From contig NZ_PVSS01000009.1 in the NCBI RefSeq assembly GCF_003025005.1, forward strand, positions 62,242-126,241: a stretch of 64,000 bases of DNA, read 5' to 3'. This document shows, piece after piece, positions 58,352 through 60,087 of this stretch. A model generated the notes under the pieces. It had not been told where the DNA came from, made no database searches, and saw nothing but the letters and a program-made list of their open reading frames with translations. The stretch comes from Brumimicrobium mesophilum (lineage in GTDB: Bacteria > Bacteroidota > Bacteroidia > Flavobacteriales_D > Crocinitomicaceae). Both the position numbers and the translations under genes were made by a program. How positions within the stretch are numbered: position 1 is the first letter of the stretch; each line of letters starts with the position of its first letter.

Positions 58352-60087
58352 ATGAGTGATTATATTGTTTCAGCTAGAAAGTACAGACCCCAAACCTTTG
58401 ATACATTGGTTGGGCAAGGCAATATTTCTACAACTTTGAAGAATGCAATCAAAAACGATCAGTTGGCGCAAGCATTTTTATTTTGTGGTTCACGAGGAGT
58501 TGGAAAGACTTCCACCGCTCGTATTTTAGCAAAAACGATCAATTGCTCAAACAAAACTGAAAACATTGAGGCATGCGGAGAATGCCCTTCATGCAAATCA
58601 TTTGATGAAGGTCAATCTTTAAATGTATATGAATTAGATGCCGCCTCAAACAATAGTGTAGATGACATTAGAAATTTAATTGATCAAGTGCGTGTTGCAC
58701 CACAATTAGGAGATTTCAAAGTTTACATAATTGATGAGGTTCACATGCTTTCAACAGCGGCTTTTAATGCTTTTTTAAAGACATTAGAAGAACCACCAAA
58801 ACATGCGATTTTTATTCTCGCAACGACTGAAAAACATAAAATAATTCCTACCATACTTTCTCGTTGTCAAATTTTTGATTTCAATAGAATTCAAATTTCA
58901 GACATTGCTGATCACTTAAAAAAGATTTCCGTAAACGAAGGAATCGATGCGGAAAGTGAAGGCCTACATTTAATAGCTCAAAAAGCGGATGGAGCACTTC
59001 GAGATGCACTGTCTATTTTTGATCAAATTGTAAGTTTTGCTGGGAAGACCTTAACTTATAAATCAGTAATAGAAAACCTAAACGTTTTAGATTATGATTA
59101 CTTTTTTAGATTAGTTGACTATGCATTAGACGAAAACATCACCAATAGTCTTTTGTTGTACCACGAAATCGTTAATCATGGATTTGATGGTCACCAATTT
59201 CTTGTTGGTTTATCAGAACACTACCGGAATCTTTTAGTTGGTAAAAATCCAAAAACAGTTGAATTACTGGAGGTCGGAGACGCTATAAAAGAACGATATA
59301 AAGAACAGTCAGCAAACATAGATGCCAAACACATCATGCGTGCTCTAGGTGTAATTAGTAGTGCAGACACCAATTACAAGTCAGCAAAAAACCAAAGATT
59401 ATTGGTCGAACTAACTTTAATGCAATTGTGTTCGATTAAAAATGAGCTTGAAAAAAAAAAGCCTTAACTGATCCCGTTGAGATCATTCCTTTCAAAGGAC
59501 AAAAAGACAGCAAAGCCTTAAGGGATAACAAAGCCAACTCAACCTCTAATCCTAAAACAAAGGAAAAACCAAAACCTATAATTTTAAATAAGGAAGCTAA
59601 AAAGCTCACAGCTCCTACTCGAAAACTTAACAACTCTTATTTAGGCATTAACGACCTAATGTCGAAAGCAAACACTAAGAAAGTAGAAGTTGTTGAGGAA
59701 AATCACGAAAATCGTCCAACAGAATCTTTTACTATCGATGATTTAAGAATGACTTGGAGAAAGTTCGCCTTCAAAGTTAAAGAAGAAGGGATGGGAACAT
59801 TGTATACTGCCATGATAGGAAATGACCCGGAAATTGGAGAAAACTATCTAATCAAACACAGGGTTGACAATGATGTTCAAATGGGATTCATTAAAACTCA
59901 TGAAACAACACTTGTTGGGTATATGCGAAAAGAACTCAACAATTGGTCTATCCAATTAAAGATTACTGAAGAAACTGTTAAAGGAGGGAAATTCTTCTCT
60001 AGTCAAGACAAATTTAATGATATGGCAGAACGCAATCCACACTTAACAACATTGCGTCAAAAATTTAATTTAGATATTGATTTTTAA
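58352..60087 (+). CDS. dnaX: DNA polymerase III gamma/tau subunit with -1 frameshift at an A10 G run
   Basis: The zero frame reads 371 residues and stops at 59465-59467. The frame -1 to it is open from the shift site through 60087, and a -1 slip at AAA-AAG (59455-59461) gives about 578 residues. Domains: P-loop GSRGVGKTSTAR, zinc Cys CGECPSC, DEVHMLS, sensor ILSRCQ (1-240), clamp-loader domain III to about 360, a Lys/Pro-rich linker, and a C-terminal domain (about 435-575: DDLRMTWRKFAFKVKEEG) typical of tau. A heptamer A AAA AAG identical to that of E. coli dnaX is in the correct phase, and a hairpin starts 7 bases later. Here the shift makes tau and zero frame makes a gamma-like form; an assembly error in A10 remains possible. 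Confidence 0.88.
59455..59498 (+). promoter_or_regulatory. dnaX slippery site and downstream hairpins
   Basis: A10 (59451-59460) plus G forms A AAA AAG in zero-frame phase. TGATC (59469-59473) and GATCA (59481-59485) form a hairpin with a 7-base loop, and CCTT/AAGG (59488-59491 and 59495-59498) a second small one. These are the elements of a programmed -1 shift, or of transcript slippage. Confidence 0.55.

Follow-up and report, generated by a model that had tools for sequence, protein, structure and literature searches.

In Escherichia coli, dnaX is one gene with two products, and the heptamer A_AAA_AAG lies at its gamma/tau junction. Ribosomes that shift there make gamma, with the help of a stem-loop and an upstream Shine-Dalgarno stimulator (PMC5009743, PMC3711429). 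The dnaX of Thermus thermophilus also gives two products, and combines a run of nine A's with close stops in both non-tau frames (PMC1088944, PMC5009743). Its zero frame encodes tau, with a stop close behind the run giving gamma from slipped transcripts (Baranov et al. 2005, PMC1088944). Transcriptional slippage is further described in Shigella flexneri mxiE, where it joins two ORFs into a longer protein (PMC1088944). Antonov et al. (2013) reported 17 dnaX genes from 12 genera in which recoding makes tau, and proposed slippage as the mechanism. Those genes consist of two adjacent ORFs related by -1 at the DNA level, and nine of the 17 have 10 A's (PMC3711429).

The locus described here is the dnaX of Brumimicrobium mesophilum, which lies in a 64,000-nucleotide stretch of contig NZ_PVSS01000009.1 (the window). 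It is not the first of its kind, as a recoded dnaX with ten A's and proposed slippage was published in 2013, and it shares with those genes the two adjacent ORFs, the -1 relation and the need of recoding for tau (PMC3711429). With T. thermophilus it has in common two features of the slippage type of dnaX, an A-run and close stops in both non-tau frames. However, the zero frame of the window encodes gamma rather than tau, and slippage is reported as shown in T. thermophilus whereas in the window we infer it (PMC1088944, PMC5009743). The E. coli heptamer is present at the junction, but a shift in the window would lead to tau instead of gamma and neither stimulator is supported (PMC5009743, PMC3711429). 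The mxiE case differs in being an unrelated gene with a run of U's (PMC1088944). The available portion of the Antonov account, unlike the wider set assembled here, holds no relatives that have the run with tau in frame 0 or +1, no double-stop test and no clade lacking the run (PMC3711429). Among the papers searched on dnaX recoding, neither a three-frame module across Bacteroidota that includes single-frame genes nor a run-less clade with an AUC-stop overlap was found.

The dnaX junction in the window

The features of the locus are as follows.

58352–59467, + strand: dnaX zero-frame ORF of 371 aa, clamp-loader core, gamma-like product (ORF reading, NCBIfam, PDB chains)
59451–59460, + strand: A10 run, proposed RNA polymerase slippage site (letters; run kept across relatives)
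59455–59461, + strand: A_AAA_AAG heptamer in zero-frame phase, a possible ribosomal site, not conserved (letters)
59465–59467, + strand: zero-frame stop TAA, end of the gamma-like form (letters)
59469–59471, + strand: TGA in the +1 frame, which together with the TAA gives stops in both non-tau frames (letters)
59461–60087, + strand: tau tail, open in the -1 frame, 208 codons and a stop (PRK14971 profile, alignment with a single-frame relative)
59722–59985, + strand: predicted KH-type domain, tail residues 88–175, candidate tau domain V (AlphaFold2 model)
59469–59485, + strand: inverted repeat, TGATC at 59469–59473 and GATCA at 59481–59485 (function as a hairpin not supported)

The zero-frame codons at the junction read GAA AAA AAA AAG CCT TAA, with the stop two codons past A10. 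In the -1 frame the sequence is open from GCC at 59461 to a stop at 60085–60087, and core and tail together amount to 578 aa. The original prediction held that the zero frame encodes the short form, that tau requires a departure from it and that the heptamer lies in its phase; all three points stand. It missed that the third frame stops at once too; the window locus (L002) has stops 1.3, 2.7 and 208 codons past the run in its three frames. The core scores 439.8 bits against NCBIfam TIGR02397 (cut-off 250) and 679.6 bits against positions 1–369 of PRK14971, whose cut-off of 685 is set for the whole protein. Its residues 4–360 match solved DnaX gamma/tau chains in the PDB with an E of about 3e-69.

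The identity of the tail as the C-terminal tail of DnaX, also part of the original prediction, is supported by a profile match and by an alignment through the junction. The tail matches the same NCBIfam model as the core (PRK14971 426–614, E 2.8e-21). The 578-aa fusion aligns over its whole length with the natural single-frame DnaX of a family relative, L086, at 60% identity in 583 columns. This alignment is gapless at the junction (ELEKKK-ALTDPVEIIPF in the window, ELEKKK-WLTDPVDIIPF in L086), and the A10 of the window corresponds to A11 in L086. The tail gave no match to tau domains in Pfam and none among PDB sequences at E ≤ 1; a further alignment (A2) holds 33 hand-picked tails.

Tail residues 88–175 are a candidate for tau domain V on the basis of a structural model. 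AlphaFold2 predicts a folded part of good confidence, with a pLDDT of about 90 for residues 91 to 170. Compared with the modelled fold, chains from complexes of DnaA domain I and of DciA reach Z scores of 8.3 and 8.2 and RbfA reaches 8.1, values near 8 being at the borderline of what common folds yield, so that the likeness is support rather than proof. A Foldseek search with the modelled tail found nothing at E ≤ 0.001. According to one published account, a KH fold is common to DciA, domain I of DnaA and domain V of DnaX, and the latter two are described as binding the helicase DnaB (PMC9912922).

Long A or T runs are found elsewhere in the 3.88-Mb genome. Runs of at least ten bases occur at 24 distinct places, after merging of 30 overlapping matches. 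Of the 23 besides dnaX, ten fall within stop-to-stop frames of at least 60 codons and thirteen do not, the frames having been read in 1.2-kb stretches and thus possibly cut. Three are in frames longer than 107 codons, each no more than 11 bases from the frame end. Two of the 23 runs may touch a gene: on contig 89 (L368) a T10 stops one base short of the end of a frame of at least 137 codons, and on contig 45 (L364) an A10 lies inside a frame of 102 codons.

The run, the frames and the stops across Bacteroidota

Junctions were collected from the family, the order and the phylum, giving 322 loci (L002–L323), of which 318 are distinct and readable. Three were dropped as duplicates (L084, L189 and L304, the last being the same contig as L086) and one because no P-loop was found (L280); L054 and L055 share a core protein, differ in their DNA and were both kept. 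L324–L345 stand outside the 318-locus tallies. The sample is weighted to the window's family rather than random, and the loci are related, so the counts that follow are not independent.

A run of about ten A's and stops in both non-tau frames are kept whichever frame encodes tau. The junction carries 9 to 13 A's in 275 of the 318 loci, comprising 30 A9, 213 A10, 29 A11, two A12 and one A13. In all three run phases, lengths of ten outnumber any other (15/26, 171/205 and 27/44). Tau lies in frame 0 in 119 loci, in -1 in 133 and in +1 in 23, and all 275 have exactly one frame open for at least 100 codons past the run, or to the end of the sequence stretch. Both non-tau frames stop within ten codons of the run in 257 of the 275. 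This holds for each class: 106 of 119 genes in frame 0, which are single-frame genes, 21 of 23 in +1 and 130 of 133 in -1. At randomly drawn control positions the same arrangement is found in 26.4% of 5,500 draws from the cores, and in 24.2% (frame 0), 30.4% (+1) and 26.4% (-1) of draws from the tails of 271 of the 275 loci.

The cores of the 318 loci, 265,212 nt in all, contain a single A9 and no longer A-run. AAA accounts for 69% of the lysine codons in these cores, so the unbroken runs at the junction are not mere lysine coding. What is constant among the loci is the run of about ten A's with its double stops; what varies is the run phase (0, 1 or 2), the next base and the tau frame. On a FastTree core tree the tau frame has changed at least 37 times, or at least 27 times once 11 single-genome states are removed as possible sequencing errors. 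Twenty shuffles of the labels on the tree gave 98–111 changes, which indicates that tau-frame states are inherited but labile.

A comparison of run and phase in related genomes had been proposed as a check; the run proves to be kept, in the genus as in the wider sample, but its phase and the heptamer vary in the latter. Close relatives with an uninterrupted dnaX and no A-run had been named as the finding that would count against the reading. The two single-frame family relatives examined, L086 and L305, instead keep A11. A run-less family clade exists, yet its dnaX is split as well. No run of eight or more is found at the junction in 43 of the 318 loci, which include 14 of the 29 labelled Bacteroidales and the family members L319–L321.

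A few loci are unusual in their own right. Among the Bacteroidales loci lacking an A-run, L120 has an in-frame TAG at the end of the core and a tail that stays open in that frame, and L130 is a split dnaX with its tail in +1. In genome G130 (98% complete) the core is in two pieces with internal stops (L342, L343), perhaps an assembly error. Two metagenome entries titled Chryseobacterium gleum and Chitinophaga pinensis (L085, L090) carry a dnaX 74% and 70% identical to that of the window and split in the same way; their titles look wrong.

Probable slippage and the readings set against it

The window's dnaX probably yields two proteins by programmed transcriptional slippage at A10. RNA polymerase would add or drop A's while copying the run. 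Transcripts with the templated 10 A's, or with changes that miss the tau frame, would run into TAA or TGA no more than three codons on, and their product would be the short gamma-like protein. Those with 11 A's (or 8 or 14) would open the tail frame and yield the 578-aa tau, with ribosomes translating the slipped transcripts in the ordinary way. We infer RNA polymerase as the slipping machine, the making of both proteins and their ratio.

Slippage is favoured by what is kept and what is not. Run length is conserved, as in the 213 loci with A10, rather than codon phase or heptamer, and the direction is indifferent, tau being found in all three frames. The double stops in 257 of 275 loci, against 24–30% at control positions, reproduce the layout of T. 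thermophilus dnaX. Within the -1 class, an in-phase A_AAA_AAG occurs in only 62 of 133 genes, and the hairpin is unsupported. The original prediction had named slippage as in Thermus as an alternative, and it fits the data better than the ribosomal signal. Counting against slippage, the heptamer is in phase in the window itself and the base after the run is G in 36 of the 70 loci of the window's family. The 43 run-less loci, with one family clade split without any run, count against it as well.

Programmed -1 ribosomal frameshifting at A_AAA_AAG, in which shifted ribosomes would make tau instead of the gamma of E. coli, is unlikely to be the mechanism. The heptamer is in phase in the window and in the 62 genes mentioned above, followed by a quick zero-frame stop, and in some bacteria the product of frameshifting seems to be reversed in this way (Atkins 2016, PMC5009743). 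However, the other 71 genes of the -1 class are without an in-phase heptamer; readings in its place include AAA AAT, AAA AAC and AAA AAA GAT. The 23 loci of the +1 class need the opposite direction, so a -1 ribosomal signal is not a general explanation; run phase and shift direction together led us to reject an E. coli-type signal in that role.

The stimulators give this reading no more help. An inverted repeat TGATC/GATCA behind the run is indeed present, but the hairpin proposed from it does not fold better than shuffled sequences (z -0.09), and the minimum-energy fold of the region uses other pairs. Within the genus alignment (A1), which holds nine of the ten genus members (L012 has a different offset and was left out), one pair is broken in five of nine sequences and no pair is changed on both sides. 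The repeat was therefore rejected as a functional stem-loop, and the weight given to heptamer and hairpin as an E. coli-like signal is likewise unsupported, neither being conserved. By reading, no AGGAG-like element lies just upstream of the window's run, though AGGAG is present there in several relatives. Ribosomes of Bacteroidia are reported to ignore Shine-Dalgarno sequences, so an upstream stimulator of the E. coli kind is not expected to work (PMC9976891). A copy of the E. coli signal is also unlikely in view of the inefficient prfB frameshifting reported in F. johnsoniae (PMC12421855). Ribosomes can slide on A-runs (PMC4363877), and such sliding could contribute in the window alongside slippage.

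Phase variation, in which the length of A10 would change in the DNA and toggle tau between cells, is very improbable. A-runs are likely to be mutable (PMC1088944), one genus member (L007) has A9 and single-frame family relatives have A11. Yet eight of the nine other sampled genomes of the genus share A10 with tau in -1, and the double stops persist in genes with tau in frame 0 as well. The off state would moreover be without tau. Tau is expected to be needed for replication. The ninth genome is L007 itself, with A9 at positions 2600–2608 of the locus and the tau tail in +1; this may be a recent frame change or a sequencing error.

Homopolymer error had been put forward as the main alternative, and was ruled out by the same arrangement in genus and family. 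All 200 genomes of the family sample have some core match at E ≤ 0.001; in seven the best match reaches just 1e-5 to 1e-11 and is probably another AAA protein, in an incomplete genome. Among the matches listed, nearly all open frames are 371–401 aa long, two are near 590 and six others span 403–486. Homopolymers are prone to errors and some of the single-genome frame states (11 of 275) may be errors, but an explanation by sequencing error or a broken gene is barely credible, because frames of 371–401 aa recur in nearly all family genomes among those matches and in the tau frame the tail still matches both the DnaX model and its relatives. At the level of the family this explanation is refuted; a rereading of this run as A11 would alter the genome's own state and not the pattern.

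The run-less clade and the tau tail

A separate tail protein, made by re-initiation near the gamma stop rather than as a fusion, is most improbable for the window. The first ATG, GTG or TTG of its tail frame is at 59659, about 190 bases downstream and within the linker, and the conserved run would be without a role. What speaks for this reading is a family clade with overlapping stop and start-like codons at that place. The clade comprises 16 loci (L324–L338 and L340) in genera g5, g8, g11, g20 and g23. Three are from the same genomes as L319–L321, the loci are related, and two share the same core protein. They form one branch on the core tree (15 rows, support 99). All lack the A-run but retain the gamma stop and the -1 tail.

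Tail homology in this clade starts at ATC in 14 of the 16 loci, with one ATG and one ATA, and ATC makes up 19.7% of the isoleucine codons in the clade's genes. The ATC and the gamma stop overlap in 13 loci (A TCN TAA or TAG), and the other three (L330, L335, L340) have ATGA, GTGA or TAATG there. The tail may be started in these loci as a separate, coupled protein, with AUC perhaps the start codon; a stop-dependent shift is another possibility.

Slippage at the window's A10 and the run-less clade can be joined in a single reading, to which we give even credence. Most Bacteroidota examined would carry a frame-indifferent dnaX module of about ten A's and double stops. As slippage would sample all frames, single-base changes would be tolerated and the tau frame could have wandered among 0, -1 and +1 at least 27 times without loss of either product. 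By slippage, gamma would be made in single-frame members too. In the run-less family clade, the conserved AUC next to the gamma stop or across it (in three loci ATG or GTG instead) would suggest a tail that is separately started and translationally coupled.

The long product of a replication gene hangs on an error-prone run, which is apparently kept for that purpose over much of the phylum. The same module in all three frames forms a natural series, in which comparison of relatives together with cDNA could decide between slippage and the ribosome. In genomes of this kind, gene finders would report the gamma part alone, or two pieces, and tau may be missing from annotations. Slippage is suggested to buffer the gene against changes of frame.
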